Shown: piece by piece, positions 4,028 to 21,469 of the stretch
Numbering within the stretch: position 1 is the first letter of the stretch
Layout of the letters: each line of letters starts with the position of its first letter
Source of the DNA: Candidatus Gastranaerophilales bacterium
Lineage (GTDB): Bacteria > Cyanobacteriota > Vampirovibrionia > Gastranaerophilales > Gastranaerophilaceae
DNA: 49,004 nt
Direction of reading: 5' to 3'
Assembly (NCBI GenBank): GCA_017467305.1
Contig: JAFTSM010000010.1
Span: 1-49,004 of the forward strand
The notes under the pieces: model-generated
What the model was told of the DNA's origin: nothing
Seen by the model: the letters and a program-made list of their open reading frames with translations, nothing else
Databases searched by the model: none
Program-made: the position numbers and the translations under genes

Positions 4028-6085
4028 ATGAAAATTTTTCATAATCACAATAGCAATAAATTTTCAATGAAGGCAAAGTTATCATCGACTACTGCCTCTA
4101 CAACTGCATCAACTACAGCATCTACGACAGCTTCAACAACAGCATCAACTCAAGGTTTAGATGATAATCATTTATTTTTGCCTTTTACTACATTTATAGC
4201 CTCTAATAATTTAATAAATCAATCTTATGAAAATTTATATACTCAAGTTACACCTCAAAATTCTGCTCTTCCTAAAATAAAAGATGTTGATAATAAAAGT
4301 ATTGTTGAACAAAAAAATGAAGATTGTATTGAAAAATTTTCTGAAAAAATAGATAAAATAAAAGATGATAATCCAAGTAAATTGATTTCTTCTTTAGATG
4401 AGATTCCAAGATACAAAAAAAATCTTTTCAAATCAATTTTTGGTGCATTGAGTATTTTTTCATTTGTTGCTCTTTCTAAAAAGAAAAAATCTTTGAGTAA
4501 ATTTAATCATAAAGATTTAAAATTTTTATTAAAAAAAGGCTGTAAAAAGAAAGACAATTTATTTTCTAGTTTTCCTTCTCCACCGCCATTAGTTCCACCT
4601 CAATCGAATACGTTATTCCAAAATACATCTAATGATTTGCCAGATATTTTTGATGTAAATACTGGTAATAGACCTATTAGAAGGATGTTAAATGGAATCA
4701 ATAGAGGTGTTATTAACTATCCTAGAAGTCTTGATGTGCTGCGATTACTAAATCTTTTGTCGTTTGGTATTTTGTTTTTAAATCTTGAGGAAAAGGTAAA
4801 AGTAAAGTATGAAGAAAAAATTCTATCAAAATTTAATTTGGCAAAAAATAATTCAATAGAAACATATTCACAAAATTATATTAAAGAATGTGAAAAAATA
4901 GGTATTCCTAAAGACTTAAGACCAACTATTGAAATACAAGTTGAAGATAAAATAATAAAGATAAATAAAGATGGTTCTTTTGTCGAAAATAAAACAAATA
5001 GTGAAACAAAATTTTCAAAAGGAGATAAGGGCTTTTATGACTCTGTCGCTCATATTATTAAAATAAATGGTGATAATGAAGATAATGATATAAATGAAAC
5101 CATTAGCCACGAATTACATCATGCACAAGAATGTATATTGAGAAATAGTATTCCACAACAAGAAAAAGATGCTCTTTTAAAAGAAGTTTTGTTAGATAGA
5201 ATACAAACTGGTGATAATATCGTCGTTATTGCTGATAAAAATTATGAATCAAACAATGCTCTTAAATTTTCATCGCCGATTATGTCTCAAAAAATGAAGA
5301 GTGATTATTTCTCTTTTGCTAAAAAACATTTATTTAAAGAAAATGATTCTTTATTAAATAATTTGAGTGAATATTACAATTTAAAATATTGTAGAAAAAA
5401 AGCTTCATTAACTGATAAAGAGAAAAAAGATTTAGCAAATATAGAAAAACAGATAACAGAACCATTAGTTGATTTAACCCAAATTGCTAAAAAATATAAT
5501 GAAAAAGATTTAAAAAAATTATTAGCGTACGCTATTTGTTTGGAAACAAGGTATCAATATTATAAAACTCCAGAACTGCAAGCATTGAACGATAAAATGC
5601 CAGTTTCTACTTCTTCTGATGAAGATGAAATTAAAAAATCAATAAGTGCTAATATAGATGCTTCTGAAGGTATTCTGATTTTTTCTTCTGCAAAAGAAAA
5701 ATATGATAATTCATCAGTCTTATACAAAATGTTCCATAGGAATCCTCAAAAAAGTGTTTTAGCTAAAGGATATGAATTTAGTAAAGAAGAAGTTGAGGCG
5801 AGGATATCATCGTGGAAACATTTATTGCAAAATTTGGACGATAATACAAATAAATATTTTGAAGTAATTAATACGAATAACAAAAAGACTGAAAAAGAAA
5901 AACAGTCAGCGATAAAAATATTAAATAGGGCTAAAAAAAATAAAACTAAATATTATCAAACTCAGATTAAAAGAGAAGAAAAAGAATATGCTAAATTCAA
6001 ATCTTATTTGGAATTTAGAAATTCTCCGTGTTTGCGTACATATTTAAACTATATGCAAAAGTCAATTGTTGCAGGACTCTTATAA
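4028..6085 (+). CDS. Unknown large protein with HExxH motif and STTA repeats
   Basis: I do not recognise the family. The 685-residue protein starts with a basic segment, then five perfect TTAS tetrapeptides (about residues 20-41) written with varied codons. Two hydrophobic stretches follow: about 136-150, next to a KKKK cluster, and about 236-252. Between them is a Pro-rich patch (SPPPLVPP, 184-191). Residues 361-365 are HELHH within ISHELHHAQE, a zinc-metallopeptidase-type HExxH. The C-terminal half is charged and helical (for example 560-650). A role as a membrane-associated metalloprotease is possible but rests on that motif alone. The ATG has AGAAGG upstream. The frameshifted gene behind it may belong to the same unit. 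Confidence 0.6.
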   Translation: MKIFHNHNSNKFSMKAKLSSTTASTTASTTASTTASTTASTQGLDDNHLFLPFTTFIASNNLINQSYENLYTQVTPQNSALPKIKDVDNKSIVEQKNEDCIEKFSEKIDKIKDDNPSKLISSLDEIPRYKKNLFKSIFGALSIFSFVALSKKKKSLSKFNHKDLKFLLKKGCKKKDNLFSSFPSPPPLVPPQSNTLFQNTSNDLPDIFDVNTGNRPIRRMLNGINRGVINYPRSLDVLRLLNLLSFGILFLNLEEKVKVKYEEKILSKFNLAKNNSIETYSQNYIKECEKIGIPKDLRPTIEIQVEDKIIKINKDGSFVENKTNSETKFSKGDKGFYDSVAHIIKINGDNEDNDINETISHELHHAQECILRNSIPQQEKDALLKEVLLDRIQTGDNIVVIADKNYESNNALKFSSPIMSQKMKSDYFSFAKKHLFKENDSLLNNLSEYYNLKYCRKKASLTDKEKKDLANIEKQITEPLVDLTQIAKKYNEKDLKKLLAYAICLETRYQYYKTPELQALNDKMPVSTSSDEDEIKKSISANIDASEGILIFSSAKEKYDNSSVLYKMFHRNPQKSVLAKGYEFSKEEVEARISSWKHLLQNLDDNTNKYFEVINTNNKKTEKEKQSAIKILNRAKKNKTKYYQTQIKREEKEYAKFKSYLEFRNSPCLRTYLNYMQKSIVAGLL

Positions 6086-6140
6086 ATTAAATTAGTGATT
6101 ATCATTAAATAAATATTGTAATAAGTAAAGGAATAAGTGA

Positions 6141-7187
6141 ATGAAAATTAATGGAATTTCAGCTAAGGTTAACATCCCTAAAAAATTGATTTAGAATTAC
6201 CGAAAATTGATAAGGAAAAAGTTGTAAATGTTGGGAAAAAGGCGTTAACTGGTTTAAGCTGTTTAGCAGCAGTTGGTTATTATTTAGTAGCTAATTCAAT
6301 ACAAAATAAACCAAGTGAAGAAGATACAACACCTATAGATAAATCTGATAAAACTGATAAGCCAGATGATTCAGATAAGTCAGATGATATAGATAAGCCA
6401 GATGCTCCTTCTTCTGGTGATATTTCTGGACCAGATGGTGATTTTGGTGGTCATGGTCGTGACAAAATCAACCCTGGTTATGACGGAAAAACAAAGGTGT
6501 TGTTAGCGTTAACAACAGATGGTCGATGTGTAGAAATATATCAGTTATCAGATGGGCGTTTGATTTCTCCTGCAGATTATCATTTTCCAGGGGGGGAAAA
6601 GCCTTAATGAACTCGCATATGACCCTAAAAATCCATATGGATTTAGTGGATGTGCGATATCAAGCGTGAATACGTCATATTCTAGACATATTGAGACGGA
6701 TTTCTCATCTTCTGAAAGTGATACTTATCGTGATGTGTTATATAAAAAATATCAAATGAAGGTTACTGAAGCATTAGGAACTTTAGAGGGTGCTGAAGAA
6801 ATTTTTGAAAAAATAAATAAACCAGAAAATAAAGATATTTACGATGCTTTGTATACTCCAGATAAATATAATAATTCTGGGGTTATACAAGTAGTTACAG
6901 ACCTTACTCCAGAAGGTTCTTTGTTAAATTTACTTTGTCGTAATTTGATGTATTCATATAGAACACTCGATGGTTATTTTGCTTCTATAGAATCATCACC
7001 ATTATCAGAAATGATAATTTCTAGAATGACTGATAAGCTTGAAAAAATTGCAGCAAAAGATTCAAATCATTCTTGTTCTCAAGTTCAGAAAGAAGAAGTA
7101 GATGAAACAGAAGAATATGAAGAATACATAAGTAGAGAAGAATTATATAGAGAACAAGAACAACAAAGACAGTATGTTTTTGCGTAG
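6141..7187 (+). pseudogene. Frameshifted unknown gene (two homopolymer indels)
   Basis: Three frames join into one protein of about 348 residues. From ATG 6141 the frame runs MKINGISAKVNIPKK and then stops at 6192. Restoring one A in the A6 run 6180-6185 leads into a frame that is open to about 6600. Removing one G from the G7 run 6590-6596 leads into the last frame, which ends at 7187. The reconstructed product has a possible membrane segment (ALTGLSCLAAVGYYLVA), an Asp/Lys/Pro-rich linker (KPDDSDKSDD), a Gly-rich piece and a charged C-terminus rich in Glu/Gln. Function is unknown. The cause may be sequencing error, gene decay or phase variation. Confidence 0.7.
6590..6596. repeat. G7 homopolymer inside the frameshifted gene
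   Basis: Seven consecutive G are exceptional in this AT-rich sequence. Six G would join the upstream reading frame to the downstream one, so the tract sits exactly at the second frameshift. Confidence 0.8.
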
Positions 7188-14445: not shown

Positions 14446-14892
14446 ATGGGTAAATATTCAGAAAAAGCTGTTGAAAATTTTAAATTGGGTTATAACTGTG
14501 CTCAATCAGTTTTTCTTGCTTTTTCATCTGATTTTGGATTTGAAGAAGAGCAAGCTTTAAGGTTATCCTCATCTTTTGGTGGTGGTATGGGTAGACTCAG
14601 AGAAGTTTGTGGCGCTGTGAGTTCTATGTTTGCAATAGCTGGCTTAAAGTATGGATATACTTCCCCAAATGATGATGAATTGAAAGCTAAACATTATGAA
14701 CTTATTCAAAAATTAGCTGAAAAATTCAAAGAAAAATATGGAACTATAATTTGTAGAGAATTATTAGAATTGCCAGAAGGTGTTGATTTTCCAATCCCTT
14801 CTAAAAGAACAGATGAATATTATGCCACAAGACCTTGTGAAGCATTTGTTCGTTATGCTTCTGAAATCATTGAAGAATTGATTTTTGACTAA
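14446..14892 (+). CDS. C-GCAxxG-C-C family redox-type protein
   Basis: A 148-residue protein of the family named for its conserved cysteines. Here the pattern is YNCAQSVF (Cys19), the glycine-rich GGGMGRLREVCGAVSSM with the next cysteine, then IICRELL and RPCEAFV near the end. Family members are proposed to be redox-active or metal/cofactor binding, but no reaction is established. The protein has no signal peptide or membrane segment. It is transcribed divergently from the LemA/DUF2207 pair and converges on ruvB, with 4 nt between the stops. There is no clear ribosome site. Confidence 0.85.
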   Translation: MGKYSEKAVENFKLGYNCAQSVFLAFSSDFGFEEEQALRLSSSFGGGMGRLREVCGAVSSMFAIAGLKYGYTSPNDDELKAKHYELIQKLAEKFKEKYGTIICRELLELPEGVDFPIPSKRTDEYYATRPCEAFVRYASEIIEELIFD

Positions 14893-16015: not shown

Positions 16016-16231
16016 TTATTTTTCTTTTTTTTTCGGAATGAATTTAAGCTCATATCCTAAAATATCAGCAATTATAAGCATTTCTCTATAGGTTATTGTT
16101 TCATTTCTTAGTTTATTTGAAAGATTTTGCATTGAATAAGGTTTATTTAATCGTTTACCTAATGCTTGAGCAAGTTCTGTCAAACTGATGTTTACATCTA
16201 ATAAAACTTTTTTTAATTCATTAATTATCAT
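16016..16231 (-). CDS. Small HTH-like DNA-binding protein
   Basis: A 71-residue, mostly helical protein resembling an XRE-type helix-turn-helix. LTELAQALGKRLNKPYSMQNLSNKL fits helix 2, turn and helix 3, ITYREMLIIADILGYEL fits the following helices, and the C-terminus is basic (KKKEK). It has a GGAG ribosome site 5-6 nt before ATG. It lies upstream of ruvB on the same strand and is divergent from the RiPP-like operon, sharing a 137-base AT-rich promoter gap with it. A role in regulating that operon is a reasonable guess from position only. Confidence 0.65.
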   Translation of the reverse strand: MIINELKKVLLDVNISLTELAQALGKRLNKPYSMQNLSNKLRNETITYREMLIIADILGYELKFIPKKKEK

Positions 16232-16301: not shown

Positions 16302-16330
16302 TTGACATGTAAACGAAATCATGTAATTAT
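16302..16330 (+). promoter_or_regulatory. Putative promoter and operator of the RiPP-like operon
   Basis: TTGACA at 16302-16307 is followed by TAATTA at 16324-16329 (16-nt spacing) or AATTAT one base later. Within the spacer, ACATG (16305-16309) and CATGT (16320-16324) form an interrupted palindrome that a dimeric repressor could use. The start codon of the first operon gene is at 16369. Confidence 0.5.
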
Positions 16331-16368: not shown

Positions 16369-17721
16369 ATGAAACAAAATATGGAAATACGAATTCCTGA
16401 ATATATATCATCATCAAGTTATTTCTTTGAAAAAGAAAATTCTAGGTGCTATGTAATAAATGAGAAAACACACCAAGAACATTTGTTTGAAGGTATTTCT
16501 GCTGACTTATGGAAGATTATTTTAGAAACTTCTAACTATGATTGTATTAATCAATATGCGTTGGAACGAGGTGTTCAGTCTGAACTAAAAGATTTTTTAT
16601 TAAGCTTACAAAAGTTAGGGTTAATAAAAATAAATGAAAAAGAGTTTCCTTATTTTTTAGGTACTGATTCTTTACCCGTTGATAATTGCGAAAAAAATTT
16701 ACAACTATTTTTGAGTGAAAAGTATAAATGGTTGTACCAAAATAATTTTCTGCCCAAATTAGCAATTGAATTGAGCTATAAGTGTAATTTAAACTGCGTA
16801 CATTGCTATAATGATAAAAATATTCCTAATGAATCTATTGATTTTGAAATTGCAAAAAACATAATTGATGATGCTATAAAAATTGGAGTTAGTGAAATTC
16901 AAATAACTAGTGGTGAGTGTACTATTAATTCTAATTTTATAAAGATTGCTAGATATATAAGAGAAAAGAAAATCCCTTTTTCTTTTGTTACAAATGGACA
17001 AGTATTATCAGATAATGATGTTTTATTTGATGAAATTGTTAAACTATATCCACATAGAGTCAGAGTTAGTTTATATAGTATGAATGCTGATATTCATGAT
17101 TCTATTACTGGAGTTAAAGGTTCTCATCAAAAAACAGTTACCGCAATAAAAAAATTAAGAGAAAAAGATATAGTTGTAACTATTAATTACTTTCAAATGA
17201 GTTTAAATAATAATTCATTTGATGATGTATTACGTTTTCAAAATGAAGTTGGAGCTGAAATAGCATACGACTTGTATTTTCTTAATAATAAGTCTAACAA
17301 TAATTCAAGTGTTATGGTAACTAATTCTCAAGTATATGACTTGTATTCTGATTCTTTGTGTCTTTTTTCTGCACAATTGAATCACATAAAGAATAATTTA
17401 GATTTTGATAATCAAATTTGTCAGGCTGGAAAGTACTTACTTTCAATTTCTCCAACACTAGATATTTGTCCTTGTATCTCTTTAAAGTACGTATTAGGTA
17501 ATTTAAAAAATACAACATTATTTAATGTTTGGAATGAAAAGATGAATGAGTTTAGAGAAAAATTCCAAGTAAGAAATTTGAAAGAATGTAATAACTCGGA
17601 TTATTGCGAATATTGTTTTTATTGTCCTGCAATGGGATTTTTAGAAAATGGATTCATGAAAAAATCTGATATTTGTTGTGAACTTGCCAAGATAAGAATG
17701 AATATTTTAAGAAAAGTATAG
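16369..17721 (+). CDS. Radical SAM/SPASM peptide maturase with PqqD-like domain
   Basis: A 450-residue enzyme expected to bind a leader peptide and modify a peptide by radical chemistry. Residues about 15-95 look like a PqqD-type RiPP recognition element (SRCYVINEKTHQEHLFEGIS, then LKDFLLSLQKLGLI). The radical SAM cluster motif is C139-x3-C143-x2-C146, followed by SAM-binding strands (ITSGECT, SFVTNGQ). The C-terminal SPASM/twitch region supplies Cys351, 367, 369, 407, 413, 416, 419, 436 and 437, enough for auxiliary FeS clusters. It is the first gene of a five-gene operon and lies 30 nt before the small peptide gene. The bond it makes (thioether, C-C or other) cannot be told. Confidence 0.88.
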   Translation: MKQNMEIRIPEYISSSSYFFEKENSRCYVINEKTHQEHLFEGISADLWKIILETSNYDCINQYALERGVQSELKDFLLSLQKLGLIKINEKEFPYFLGTDSLPVDNCEKNLQLFLSEKYKWLYQNNFLPKLAIELSYKCNLNCVHCYNDKNIPNESIDFEIAKNIIDDAIKIGVSEIQITSGECTINSNFIKIARYIREKKIPFSFVTNGQVLSDNDVLFDEIVKLYPHRVRVSLYSMNADIHDSITGVKGSHQKTVTAIKKLREKDIVVTINYFQMSLNNNSFDDVLRFQNEVGAEIAYDLYFLNNKSNNNSSVMVTNSQVYDLYSDSLCLFSAQLNHIKNNLDFDNQICQAGKYLLSISPTLDICPCISLKYVLGNLKNTTLFNVWNEKMNEFREKFQVRNLKECNNSDYCEYCFYCPAMGFLENGFMKKSDICCELAKIRMNILRKV

Positions 17722-17751
17722 TAGTTTTCATAGAAATTTAAGGAGAAAAAA

Positions 17752-17889
17752 ATGAACAACAAAAAAAACAAAAAGGAAAAAACGTTAGATATTAAAAAGT
17801 TGAAAATTTCAAAGAGTATTTGTGATAAACGCAAAGTTTATTCTGGTGGTTGTGGATATAATGATTTTAGTTGTACAAATGTTGCCTAA
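17752..17889 (+). CDS. Candidate RiPP precursor peptide, 45 residues
   Basis: Too short for the usual ORF cut-offs, but it has a strong ribosome site (AAGGAG, 17740-17745) six bases before its ATG and fills the gap between two modifying-enzyme genes. The N-terminal half is Lys-rich and contains TLDIKKLKISKSI (11-23), a pattern of alternating hydrophobics like leader segments bound by PqqD-type domains. The C-terminal part, YSGGCGYNDFSCTNVA (30-45), has Cys34 and Cys41, Ser31 and Ser40, Thr42 and a Gly-rich turn, typical of a modified core; a third cysteine is Cys24. No double-Gly or other certain cleavage site is obvious, although GG at 32-33 exists. Its stop is 5 nt before the next ATG, and that gene has no ribosome site, so translation may be coupled. 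Confidence 0.78.
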   Translation: MNNKKNKKEKTLDIKKLKISKSICDKRKVYSGGCGYNDFSCTNVA

Positions 17890-17894
17890 TTTAA

Positions 17895-18809
17895 ATGATT
17901 TACAATGAAAATTATACTCACCCAAAATATAAGAATTGGTATTATTTTTTGAAACATGTTCCTCCTCCATTTTATCCGTTGGTGTTGAAACATCTTTATA
18001 AAGAAAAATTTCATGTTCCTTTAAATTTGTTAGAGCCGCAAAGACTTTCTGAGAAAATATTAAAAAGTTGTCTTGATGATAAAGACATAAAAAAGACCAA
18101 ATTAACAGATAAGTTAAAAGCAAAAGAATATGTTAAAAATGTCATACCTGATTTGAAGTACGCAAAAGTTTATCAAATCGCTGATTCATTCAATGAATTA
18201 GACTTTTCTTTTGCTCCTAATTCATTTGTCATAAAAACAAATCATGCTTGGAAAACACATATTTTGGTTCAAGATAAAAGATTGCTTAAAAGTACTGATT
18301 ATAATGAATTTAAACAATACTATAAAAGTGTTTTATCAATTAATTATGCATATTGGGGAAGTTATGAACTTCAGTACAAAAATATAACGCCTAAAATTTT
18401 TTTGGAAGAATATCTCTGTTTTGAAAATGAGGGATTTATAAAAGAGTATGAAGTATATTGTTTTAAAGGGAAACCTATGTTTATTAATTATCTTATTTCT
18501 CCAAACTATACGCCCGATTTATTTAATTGCCAGTCTGATATAGTAAAATCTCAAATATTTGATACAAATTGGGAACAAGCAAATTTTAAAATACGCTTTA
18601 GCAGTGGACTTTCGACTCCAGATACAAAAAATAAAGAACTGATATTAACTTATGCAGAAAAACTTTCTTATGGATTTGATTTTGTCAGAATTGACATCTT
18701 CGAAATTGGTGATGAGTTATATTTTGGAGAATTTACTTTTTCTCCATACTCTGGATTTATAACTTTTATTCCTGAAAAATTTGATTTGATTTATGGGCAG
18801 AAATATTAA
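17895..18809 (+). CDS. TupA-like ATP-grasp enzyme
   Basis: A 304-residue protein of the ATPgrasp_TupA family, known from teichuronopeptide and polysaccharide loci, where members are thought to form amide bonds with ATP. Matching stretches are TDKLKAKEYV (71-80), FVIKTNHAWK (111-120, ATP-contacting lysine and histidine), YEVYCFKGKP (185-194), FVRID (263-267) and FGEFTFSPYSGF (277-288, metal-binding Glu). In this operon it could ligate an amino acid or sugar acid to the peptide, or close a macrocycle; this is inference. It shows no ribosome site of its own, so it probably depends on translation of the peptide gene. The next gene starts 15 nt after its stop. Confidence 0.82.
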   Translation: MIYNENYTHPKYKNWYYFLKHVPPPFYPLVLKHLYKEKFHVPLNLLEPQRLSEKILKSCLDDKDIKKTKLTDKLKAKEYVKNVIPDLKYAKVYQIADSFNELDFSFAPNSFVIKTNHAWKTHILVQDKRLLKSTDYNEFKQYYKSVLSINYAYWGSYELQYKNITPKIFLEEYLCFENEGFIKEYEVYCFKGKPMFINYLISPNYTPDLFNCQSDIVKSQIFDTNWEQANFKIRFSSGLSTPDTKNKELILTYAEKLSYGFDFVRIDIFEIGDELYFGEFTFSPYSGFITFIPEKFDLIYGQKY

Positions 18810-18824
18810 AAAGAGAGATAATTG

Positions 18825-20597
18825 ATGTTATATAGCATATGTAAAGACGAAAAACCTAAAAGAACAGTTGATAGGATAAGAAAAATTTTAGGTGATATTG
18901 GTATAAATTTACAAGAAATATTACATTTAGAAGAAATCGAATTTGCTCCAGTATCGCTTAGGTTGACATTAAAAAATAGTCCTCTAATAGGAACAAATGG
19001 AAAAGGTACAAATAAAATAAATGCTTTAGCAAGCGGATATGCAGAGTTTATGGAACGTTTACAAAATTCATATCTTTTTCCAGATTTAGAAAGAGAATTT
19101 GACATTGTATCTGATAAAAAAAGAATTGATTGTAGCATAAATTTCAAAAATAAATATCTACAAAACTATTTTGATGATAAATTAATAATTTTTGATAAAT
19201 TATCCAAAAAAGGGAAAAATCCTGATAAATGTTTATTTTCATTTCCTTTCTATAGTGTAAGAGAACGAAATATTTATGGTTTACCATACAACATTATTGA
19301 TAGAGTAAAAGGCACAAATGGAATGGCTGCTGGTAATACGTACGAAGAAGCTCTTGTACAAGGGCTTTCAGAAGTGTCTGAGAGATATGTACTAAAACAA
19401 GTTTTTATAAATCAAATTGCATTGCCAAATATTCCTAGAGATGAGTATTTAAAATATGATAATATTCGGAAAATTATTGAATATTTTGAAATAAATGGAT
19501 ATAAGGTCTATGTTAAAGATGCCTCATTAAATGCCAAAGTACCTGTTGTTTGTACAATAATAGAAGATACGAAAAACAATGTTTTTACCCCTTCTTTTGG
19601 TTCGCACCCTATATTCCCGATAGCTGTGGAGCGAACATTAACTGAATTTGCGCAAGGGTTAACATTATCGAAAATAGGCAATGGGTCTATCAACTATCCT
19701 TGTTACACCAAGGAAAAACTTAAGTATATCGATTATAGCTTATTATATAGAGCTTTGTCTTTACATAAAGTTGCTTTCGAAAAAACAGAAATATTAGAAA
19801 AAATATTTTGGAACAATGAAGTTTCATATGAATTTTCTCCATCTGCTTGGATATCTTCTTTTGATAGTTGGGATAATAAAAAAAATTTAGAATTCTTGGT
19901 TCATAAAATTTTGAATTTTTCAAACGATATATATGTTAGAGATGTTTCTTTTTTAGATTTTCCATCTGTTGATATATTTATTCCTAATGTTACTGATTTA
20001 TTTGAATACAGTGAAAATTTTATTGAAGAAAATAAATTTTTGGATATTTATTGGTCTAAATATTATTTTGAAGTAGATAGGGCTAATTATAATCTTGATA
20101 ATTTATTAAAGTTAGCAGAAATATATACTTTCTCTGATTCTATTTATAGCAAAAATGTTTTTTGTGTTTCATTTGAATATATAGCATTTCTATGTTCTGT
20201 TGTATGTAAAGACTTAAATAAAATTATAAAATATGCAGATATATTAATTTCAGAAAATAGATTTAATCAAAGCTATGATGAAACACAAATACAAATTTTC
20301 AAAATTATAAGAGATTATTGCAATATAAAAAAATCAAAAGTATATGATGATATCTGTATAAAAGGTAAGTTATTAAAAAAATATGAAATTTCTGAAATTG
20401 ATTATGCAATTAGTATAATTAATGAGTTAAATTTTGATATGGTTTTAGAGATAGTTTTAGAAAATAAAAAGATACCAAAAACAAAATATAAGACCTTATT
20501 AAAACGATTGAAACAAAAATATAAAGCTAATCAGCCCAAACAGATGATTTTCCAAAATATTTTTGATTTTGATATACAAGAAAGTTGTTTAATATAA
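18825..20597 (+). CDS. YcaO-domain protein (full-length, E. coli YcaO-like)
   Basis: ATP-dependent YcaO enzymes activate peptide backbone amides to make azolines, thioamides or amidines. This 590-residue protein follows the layout of stand-alone E. coli YcaO (similar length) rather than a fused cyclodehydratase. It has TNGKGTNKINALASGYAEF (57-75) with Glu74, Glu77 and Arg78, TNGMAAGNTYEEALVQGLSE (164-183) with Glu183, Glu186 and Arg187, and SFGSHPIFPIAVERTLTE further on; these are the ATP/Mg-binding motifs. The C-terminal third (about 400-590) is helical and resembles the TPR-like tail of E. coli YcaO. ATG 18825 is used (AGAGAGAT upstream); a TTG precedes it by one codon. No E1-like or TfuA partner is adjacent. 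Its stop overlaps the next start (TAATG). Confidence 0.87.
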   Translation: MLYSICKDEKPKRTVDRIRKILGDIGINLQEILHLEEIEFAPVSLRLTLKNSPLIGTNGKGTNKINALASGYAEFMERLQNSYLFPDLEREFDIVSDKKRIDCSINFKNKYLQNYFDDKLIIFDKLSKKGKNPDKCLFSFPFYSVRERNIYGLPYNIIDRVKGTNGMAAGNTYEEALVQGLSEVSERYVLKQVFINQIALPNIPRDEYLKYDNIRKIIEYFEINGYKVYVKDASLNAKVPVVCTIIEDTKNNVFTPSFGSHPIFPIAVERTLTEFAQGLTLSKIGNGSINYPCYTKEKLKYIDYSLLYRALSLHKVAFEKTEILEKIFWNNEVSYEFSPSAWISSFDSWDNKKNLEFLVHKILNFSNDIYVRDVSFLDFPSVDIFIPNVTDLFEYSENFIEENKFLDIYWSKYYFEVDRANYNLDNLLKLAEIYTFSDSIYSKNVFCVSFEYIAFLCSVVCKDLNKIIKYADILISENRFNQSYDETQIQIFKIIRDYCNIKKSKVYDDICIKGKLLKKYEISEIDYAISIINELNFDMVLEIVLENKKIPKTKYKTLLKRLKQKYKANQPKQMIFQNIFDFDIQESCLI

Positions 20598-21469
20598 TGG
20601 GTAAAAAAATGAGCTATTTCAAACATAAAAAATGTTTTTGGATAAATATTGCAATGGCCCAACATTGTAATTTAAATTGTAAAGGTTGTGCTGTATTCTC
20701 CCCATTGGCAGAAAAGAACGTCCTTTCATTTTCCCAACCAATAAAAGATTTTGAACATATAAAATCTATAAGTAGAGAGATTATTGATTTTAAATTTTCT
20801 TACTTAGGTGGTGAACCATTATTAAATCCTAATTTTTTAGATATTGTGAAGAGAATGCGTGAATTATTTCCAAATAGTTATCAGGATTTTCTTACAAATG
20901 GTTTACTATTGCCAGATAATGATGAAGAATTTTGGAAAACAATTAAAAAGCTTAATTTAAACATTTTCATTTCTAAGTATCCAATTGATATAGATAGAAC
21001 AAACTATGAAAAATTAGCAAAAAAATTTTCTGTAAAAATAAACTACCGTACTATTAATTCAACAAAAATATATAGTTGTAAAACAAGACAAGTCGTAGAT
21101 AATTGTTCTATCAACAACAATTTACCTTGGACAAAAAATGTTTTGGATTTATTAGGAACGCAAAATCATAAGGAAAAGTTTAATAATTGTCCCTATTATG
21201 GCGGACTAATATATTCAAATGGAAATTTATATAGCTGTTGTATTCATGCATATATTCAAAACTTTATAAATTATTTTAAGGTTGATATTCCAATTACATA
21301 TCATGATTATATTTGTGTGCAAAATTTAAAAAATATAGCAGAAATTGATAGTTTTCTACAAACCCCAAAGCCATTGTGTAGATTTTGTAAACAGGTTTAT
21401 ATTTTTTCTGAAAATGAAAAACAAATAGAATGGGATTTTAGTAATAAAAGTATATCTGAATGGACTTAG
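20597..21469 (+). CDS. Second radical SAM enzyme of the RiPP-like operon
   Basis: A 290-residue radical SAM protein. AQHCNLNCKGCAVFSP carries the cluster cysteines C24-x3-C28-x2-C31, followed by YLGGEPLLNPNF (GGEP SAM-binding motif) and DFLTNGLLLP. The C-terminal part has a shorter SPASM-like cysteine set (NNCPYYGGLIYSNGNLYSCC and PLCRFCKQ), suggesting one auxiliary cluster. There is no PqqD-like domain, so it may rely on the first enzyme for leader binding. The ATG overlaps the ycaO stop codon in TAATG; a TTG four codons upstream would extend it slightly. It closes the operon; no terminator is seen before gatA, 94 nt downstream. Confidence 0.83.
   Translation: MGKKMSYFKHKKCFWINIAMAQHCNLNCKGCAVFSPLAEKNVLSFSQPIKDFEHIKSISREIIDFKFSYLGGEPLLNPNFLDIVKRMRELFPNSYQDFLTNGLLLPDNDEEFWKTIKKLNLNIFISKYPIDIDRTNYEKLAKKFSVKINYRTINSTKIYSCKTRQVVDNCSINNNLPWTKNVLDLLGTQNHKEKFNNCPYYGGLIYSNGNLYSCCIHAYIQNFINYFKVDIPITYHDYICVQNLKNIAEIDSFLQTPKPLCRFCKQVYIFSENEKQIEWDFSNKSISEWT

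Follow-up and report, generated by a model that had tools for sequence, protein, structure and literature searches.

The operon at positions 16369-21469 (plus strand) of a 49,004-nucleotide stretch of Candidatus Gastranaerophilales bacterium DNA (contig JAFTSM010000010.1; the whole stretch is called here the window) is best explained as making a modified ribosomal peptide, a member of a TupA-centred family of ribosomally synthesized and post-translationally modified peptides (RiPPs). We assign to this explanation a probability of roughly 0.72, and the RiPP-like nature of the operon is well supported. Its genes encode, in order, a radical SAM/SPASM enzyme (rSAM1), a 45-residue peptide, a TupA-like ATP-grasp protein, a YcaO protein and a short second radical SAM enzyme (rSAM2). 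A preliminary description had read these tightly packed genes as an operon for a multiply modified peptide. All five frames, the intergenic gaps of 30, 5 and 15 nucleotides, the TAATG overlap between YcaO and rSAM2 and, by Pfam, the protein families are as described there, and a modified RiPP-like peptide is supported; a fixed five-gene unit is not, as none of the other four loci that hold both rSAM1 and YcaO has the same genes or order. The peptide, on the other hand, is kept wherever the two enzymes occur together (5/5 loci, window included). A multiply modified RiPP is argued for by this retention, by the RRE-type N-terminus of rSAM1 (RRE, RiPP recognition element), by the way in which the class of the leader tracks the tree of the enzyme, and by the variability of the cores, which are rich in Cys and Gly.

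The putative maturase and its precursor peptides

Pfam recognizes in rSAM1 both the radical SAM core (5.6e-22) and SPASM (1.4e-6). Among the best 25 of 44 NCBIfam families, the protein reaches the cutoff of none; for the operon proteins as a whole, among the families listed, only the general YcaO domain model was over its cutoff, equivalog models remaining far below theirs. In an AlphaFold2 model built with 26 relatives (predicted local distance difference test, pLDDT, 85.9; predicted template modelling score 0.87) residues 6-82 form strands followed by three helices ahead of the radical SAM core, which we take to be the RRE pattern. The top seven Foldseek matches of this model in the PDB were SuiB (ranks 1-5), then 5why, whose title refers to thioether bond formation in sactipeptides, and SkfB, which is also the best PDB sequence match of the rSAM1 profile (2.6e-23). 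Across 26 aligned rows C139, C143, C146 and five later cysteines are invariant, as are W48 and L80 in the RRE part, and three more cysteines are kept in at least 90%. With the combination of RRE, radical SAM and SPASM parts expected of sactipeptide and ranthipeptide enzymes, rSAM1 looks, as far as a predicted structure tells, like a RiPP maturase.

The peptide gave no match to NCBIfam families at E up to 1 and one sub-threshold match to Pfam. We take it as real because its ATG is preceded by a ribosome site (AAGGAG), because the genes are tightly packed, and because related peptides stand beside related enzymes; it thus provides the short gene-encoded precursor beside modifying enzymes that is general among RiPPs. 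Gene maps reveal two classes of peptide near rSAM1, one with an acidic leader (NLSIEEINELFxDIIExP), mostly in the order TupA-peptide-rSAM1, and one in which a basic KLKIS-type leader is followed by a core that begins in a GGC-like way and has another cysteine; the window peptide is of the KLKIS class. These maps were drawn with a greedy frame caller instead of a trained gene finder, contig ends limit what can be called absent, and counts of matches as places include split pieces. A peptide of one class or the other is found near 46 of the 55 rSAM1 matches listed: the acid class within 500 nucleotides of 30, the KLKIS class near 16 (15 within 461 nucleotides, one 1 kb off). Neither class accompanies the other nine, some of which are pieces at contig ends. 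When the acid leader models were run over 775 kb of loci (E<1e-5), 32 of 33 matches lay within 300 nucleotides of rSAM1 on the same strand (11 of 12 after exclusion of the 21 training rows); since these loci were mostly chosen for rSAM1, and the rest mostly for YcaO, this nearness is not an unbiased rate, and the view of the genus is given by the genus-wide tally, which at E up to 1e-3 counts 97 acid-leader peptides spread over 23 of the 42 genomes. In the order sample (E up to 1e-5) the acid leader was found in 10 of 286 genomes, all in the genus and none outside it.

Covariation between peptide and enzymes, which the preliminary description had proposed as a check, is present at the level of the leader class. 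On a tree of 47 rSAM1 rows (44 labelled), which leaves out the long branches L083_5 and L019_8b and frames shorter than 300 residues, the class changes 2 times, compared with at least 10 times in each of 200 shuffles; the window and locus L072 are sisters with support 99. Among 32 acid-class peptides the leader block has a mean pairwise identity of 48%, a value helped by the fact that the block was chosen by pattern, which favours likeness, while the cores resemble one another only weakly (a score of 0.113 per residue against 0.052 after shuffling). The conserved leader and variable core expected of RiPPs are therefore seen in the acid class, and in the KLKIS class by alignment only. Cysteine occurs in 30 of the 32 acid-class cores (two or more in 17), and at least two cysteines in all 18 KLKIS-class peptides, contents that are compatible with a Cys-to-carbon thioether.

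The rSAM1 enzyme is present in 20 of the 42 genomes of the genus, with up to five matches per genome and three in the genome of the window. It turned up in 3 of 244 genomes of a phylum sample (E up to 1e-60); two of these belong to the genus and the third to a different genus of the same family. Among the best 80 of 510 confirmed matches in the genome collection, the closest rSAM1 proteins were in Candidatus Gastranaerophilales bacterium records and in a goat jejunum record (L121); a Clostridiales bacterium record (L127) has a more distant one, and many records below it are weak matches. No relative was confirmed in 189 candidate stretches of viral contigs, and a search for a link to defence returned nothing beyond generic viperin-type radical SAM similarity. 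At L019:6717-7931 (minus strand) a second rSAM1 copy without CxxxCxxC, with its N-terminal part kept, stands beside a peptide and an intact rSAM1; it is perhaps a pseudo-enzyme serving as a leader-binding scaffold.

TupA and small-protein partners

The model of the TupA protein (pLDDT 91.4) has its nearest fold matches in LysX/ArgX, then in Ddl and RimK and, lower, in PsnB and MdnC, with template modelling (TM) scores of about 0.33-0.48 overall. The natural reading of these matches, though no proof, would be that TupA forms amides or esters on a small protein. Of the 97 acid-leader peptides of the genus, 56 adjoin a listed TupA gene (median gap 12 nucleotides), 27 of them together with rSAM1 and 29 with TupA only; 5 stand beside rSAM1 only. 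These neighbour counts refer to 150 listed TupA places, which for genomes G126 and G248 comprise 33 and 16 of the 62 and 59 TupA matches tallied.

G126 and G248 have no rSAM1 at E up to 1e-20. The leader-class proteins seen in them have about 90-160 residues and variable cores rich in Cys, Tyr and Trp, and many are beside TupA (examples are L218:702-1040, L222:4120-4596 and L225:681-1001); several contigs of these genomes end inside TupA, as if in a repeat family. Other genera have a different small protein (MSTxxDN...) directly upstream of TupA. A search for its family returned 11 places in 11 of 288 genomes, nine as short frames and two inside long frames; all nine short frames adjoin TupA, including four outside the training set (coordinates compared by eye). 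The five proteins aligned have 71-102 residues and no cysteine. Loci of this type, mostly in other genera, are L056, L063, L066, L070, L071, G319:C83, G074:C13, G086:C19 and G160:C7. TupA is thus paired with at least three types of small protein, and at a deeper level the unit seems to be TupA with a peptide.

A changing set of additional enzymes

The YcaO protein keeps the conserved glutamates and has a long C-terminal part. Among solved structures E. coli YcaO (PDB 4q84, 1.6e-39) is the nearest relative; its E202 aligns by eye with a kept glutamate, E186, of the window protein. One report on the E. coli enzyme (PMC13063428) describes a tested variant altered at E202, shows thioamidation of uL16, gives an isoelectric point (pI) of 4.4, and mentions a few group members that are not acidic and occur in RiPP-like surroundings. 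The pI of the window YcaO is 6.9, and in the family it is at least 6.9 for 18 of 19 members, the window protein counted. NF040716, the equivalog model for E. coli YcaO as an S12/RimO accessory, is the best NCBIfam match at 207 of 700 bits, below cutoff. The SagD-type model TIGR03604 scores 44 bits (cutoff 219), and Pfam and NCBIfam find neither an E1-like partner nor a dehydrogenase among the five genes, so that these marks of the thiazole/oxazole-modified microcins and linear azole-containing peptides are missing; a TfuA domain is likewise absent from the five genes, and with it the hallmark of the TfuA-thioamitides. A thioamide would be the YcaO product with about an even chance, ahead of azoline or amidine as alternatives.

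YcaO was found genus-wide in 29 rows, split pieces included, from 17 of 42 genomes, and on the compared contigs no more than five YcaO genes are at a locus that also holds rSAM1. Its presence changes 3 times on the rSAM1 tree (shuffles: mean 4.9, minimum 4). A first scan of the genome collection with YcaO alone confirmed no relative. For rSAM2, which has relatives in L027, L081 and L108, the best PDB relative is 7wzv, and no tie to a reaction was found for it. Some YcaO genes occur in other settings. Four lie on one strand within 8.3 kb at L029:6775-15043, a stretch without rSAM1 or TupA; others are near a homologous pair of about 166 and 720 residues (adjacent in L020 and L026, with one gene between in L023 and L028) that resembles nrdG/nrdD by sequence. 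In G264:C78, YcaO (18-1583), TupA (5717-6571) and an acid leader (6582-6731) are found together with no listed rSAM1, and in G242:C5 a single contig carries YcaO and, a few kb off, TupA, again with no listed rSAM1; both are possible YcaO-TupA-peptide sets.

The preliminary description had suggested looking for the same five-gene order in relatives; as a conserved unit this order was rejected (0/4 other loci). The nearest relative, L072, lies at the same chromosomal site, with a ruvB-like gene upstream and a gatA-like gene downstream (names assigned by sequence), and reads rSAM1-peptide-YcaO-TupA without rSAM2. L073 reads TupA-rSAM1-peptide-YcaO, L025, from the genome of the window, reads TupA-peptide-rSAM1-X-YcaO, and L019 holds a larger set with YcaO on the opposite strand. 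Given these differing gene sets, the family is modular and the window operon represents one of its combinations. Further enzymes join it elsewhere: an AsnB-like (asparagine-synthase-like) protein directly follows TupA-peptide-rSAM1 at L079:4286-5977 (minus strand), its N-terminus being MGGIFG where that of such proteins is usually MCGIFG; proteins of a glycosyltransferase family 8 (GT8) cluster occur in L091 and L104; and a U32-like protein accompanies the TupA-peptide pair in L219, with look-alikes by eye in L225 and L231. At L229:2317-3618 and 4445-5752, PurD-like ATP-grasp proteins (the first by Pfam, the second by eye) surround two acid-leader peptides.

The features of the window operon and its upstream region are listed in Table 1. 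The promoter-like site of the preliminary description is present; such sites number 48 in the window and 43.7 in shuffles (sd 6.6), so that without enrichment the site alone is no evidence. A divergent regulator-like gene, which the preliminary description does not mention for the window, is found upstream in several KLKIS-class loci: L072 and L099, the latter at another chromosomal site, have a gene of the same helix-turn-helix (HTH)-like family as the window, and in L080, L089 and L096 the position is taken by a different protein, MerR-like by eye. At 14446-14892 of the window, upstream of the ruvB-like gene, there is a redox-type protein with a C_GCAxxG_C_C pattern.

Table 1. Operon genes and upstream elements in the window
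Feature	Position	Strand	Basis
HTH-like small protein, 71 residues, possible local regulator	16016..16231	-	weak HTH_26, E 0.005, below cutoff
Promoter-like TTGACA-N17-AATTAT	16302..16330	+	10/12 matches
rSAM1: RRE (PqqD-like) ~1-90, radical SAM core CNLNCVHC, SPASM	16369..17721	+	Pfam, AlphaFold2, Foldseek
Precursor peptide, 45 residues; KLKIS-type leader, core near RKVYSGGCGYNDFSCTNVA (putative boundary)	17752..17889	+	class common to peptides near related rSAM1 genes
TupA-like ATP-grasp enzyme, 304 residues	17895..18809	+	ATPgrasp_TupA PF14305 2.1e-29
YcaO, 590 residues, E. coli YcaO relative	18825..20597 (ATG 18825)	+	PF02624 1.3e-44
rSAM2, short radical SAM enzyme, CNLNCKGC	20597..21469 (ATG 20597)	+	Radical_SAM PF04055 5.4e-8

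Proposed pathway, alternatives and known systems

Every chemical step of the pathway is one that we infer from the observed gene content, packing, families, predicted folds, co-occurrence and leader co-segregation. The N-terminal domain of rSAM1 would bind the KLKIS-type leader, as suggested by its fold and by the agreement of leader class with the enzyme tree; through radical chemistry of the SPASM type the enzyme may join the sulfur of a core cysteine to a carbon elsewhere in the peptide, in keeping with the nearest maturases and the Cys-rich cores. TupA would use ATP to make an amide or ester bond, either inside the peptide or linking it to a small partner, as the TupA fold and the repeated pairing with small proteins suggest. 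YcaO would modify a backbone amide, with a thioamide as the favoured product ahead of azoline or amidine, rSAM2 might add one further radical change, and leader removal and export would be left to proteins encoded elsewhere.

Several observations weigh against this reading. Beside neither a listed TupA nor rSAM1 are 36 of the 97 acid-leader peptides; 11 of these were inspected, in nine fetched stretches. TupA fragments adjoin the peptide in three cases (L227, L228, L237), two peptides in L229 have TupA 1.6-1.9 kb off, and six (L222, L223, L224, L236 and two in L234) have no TupA near, the upstream side being cut by the contig end in four. TupA may also have other uses, as 87 of the 150 listed TupA genes of the genus have no acid leader or rSAM1 within 500 nucleotides, and in the wider TupA family an MST-type protein was found at 5 of the 18 loci inspected. 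YcaO (five rSAM1 loci) and, still more so, rSAM2 are rare at rSAM1 loci, and their action on the peptide rests on operon membership. Finally, the operon has no exporter or protease, as the preliminary description already remarked, and no immunity gene, exporter or protease was recognised. Export through a C39 peptidase was considered and rejected: the genome of the window (89% complete) has no match, and C39 is found in 12 of 42 genomes of the genus, 4 of which are among the 20 with rSAM1.

The missing exporter would also suit a role in surface-glycan decoration, in which TupA would attach the (modified) peptide to a polysaccharide of the cell surface, making it a surface appendage rather than a free metabolite. 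TupA-like ATP-grasp proteins are known for their link to surface polymers, and the name points to teichuronopeptide; family 8 glycosyltransferases are present in L027 and L031, with members of the same homology cluster in L091, L099, L104 and L119, L104 also has a polysaccharide pyruvyl transferase nearby, and in L083 a glycosyltransferase of family 9 stands beside rSAM1. The window operon itself, however, has no glycosyltransferase, few of the mapped rSAM1 loci hold one, and a leader with a variable Cys-rich core is the pattern of a RiPP, so that we regard surface decoration as unlikely. We give much less weight to the idea that YcaO is a modifier of ribosomal proteins (a uL16 thioamidase or RimO helper) that sits in the operon by chance. 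Its closest solved relative and best NCBIfam match (207 bits, cutoff 700) do point that way, and of the 13 loci that were fetched after a first survey for YcaO, 9 have no rSAM1 or TupA near that gene; yet the gene is tightly packed in the operon, its product lacks the acidity of E. coli YcaO (pI 6.9 versus 4.4, PMC13063428), and RimO exceeds its cutoff in nearly all genomes of the genus (40 of 42), compared with 17 of 42 for the presence of YcaO. A conserved redox cofactor or signal of the pyrroloquinoline quinone (PQQ) or mycofactocin type is, by a small margin, the most improbable of the products considered. It would account for the scores that rSAM1 reaches, far short of every cutoff, with the models for mycofactocin, PqqE and heme radical SAM enzymes, but not for strongly varying cores and up to five rSAM1 matches per genome; cofactor precursors generally keep their core.

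Overall, a modified peptide of a TupA-centred RiPP family accounts best for the operon, and a large TupA-type family beside fast-changing peptide genes, with other enzymes gained and lost from locus to locus, is apparently undescribed. A bolder form of this proposal, which we hold tentatively and at somewhat less than even odds, is a new RiPP class: TupA would be the founding peptide modifier, with its own leader types, mainly in one gut Gastranaerophilales genus and with related TupA-small-protein pairs elsewhere; an RRE-SPASM enzyme, a YcaO thioamidase, a short radical SAM enzyme and U32-like, GT8, AsnB-like and PurD-like proteins would form a tool-box of swapped add-ons; and the window peptide would carry a thioether, a thioamide and a TupA-made bond. 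Some genomes would then carry dozens of TupA-peptide pairs, much like a repertoire that diversifies for use at the surface or in conflicts. That the product is a diversified peptide, for antagonism, signalling or a surface role, is suggested by the variability of the cores, by the several copies found per genome and by tailoring genes that come and go; among these roles we make no choice as no immunity gene or exporter was recognised. That TupA is found repeatedly next to small peptide genes that evolve fast suggests that it modifies peptides and that an uncultured gut lineage has a RiPP family of this kind, one whose 97 acid-leader peptides are a rich set of natural variants in which to map the rules of leaders and cores.

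In the open literature we found nothing joining TupA, ATP-grasp and radical SAM, subscription papers being mostly outside the search, and for Gastranaerophilales with radical SAM only unrelated work, judged by title and abstract start. The available parts of two papers on teichuronopeptide and ATP-grasp (PMC2824669, PMC4431377) do not name TupA. Clusters of radical SAM and YcaO genes with export genes are reported in Bacteroidales (PMC10352776, in whose available text ATP-grasp occurs 0 times).

Among known systems, the sactipeptides and ranthipeptides (SkfB, CteB) and the SuiB-type enzymes share with rSAM1 the overall predicted fold, including the RRE end, and an adjoining short Cys-rich peptide; rSAM1 differs in lying below the NCBIfam cutoffs (best 25 of 44) and in its pairing with TupA. 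Graspetides (microviridin MdnC, PsnB) likewise have an ATP-grasp enzyme beside a leader-bearing precursor, and the predicted TupA fold, which matches PsnB and MdnC, is compatible with ester or amide formation of the graspetide type; the window enzyme, however, is of the TupA family, and the TM scores are only about 0.33-0.41. The main text of a graspetide survey contains no occurrence of TupA, and its available part describes a different ATP-grasp branch, number 6, with SPASM, YcaO and TfuA (PMC8939145). The best fold matches of TupA are LysX/ArgX (TM about 0.38-0.48). These enzymes ligate amino acids to the small gene-encoded protein LysW, and no LysW-like carrier is seen here. With E. coli YcaO, finally, the window YcaO has in common the long C-terminal part and, by eye, the E202-aligned glutamate, whereas its family is diverse and not acidic, and the window copy is inside a peptide operon; with an RRE-SPASM maturase and this E. 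coli YcaO relative around one 45-residue peptide, the operon could test how a YcaO of the E. coli type came to act on short peptides.

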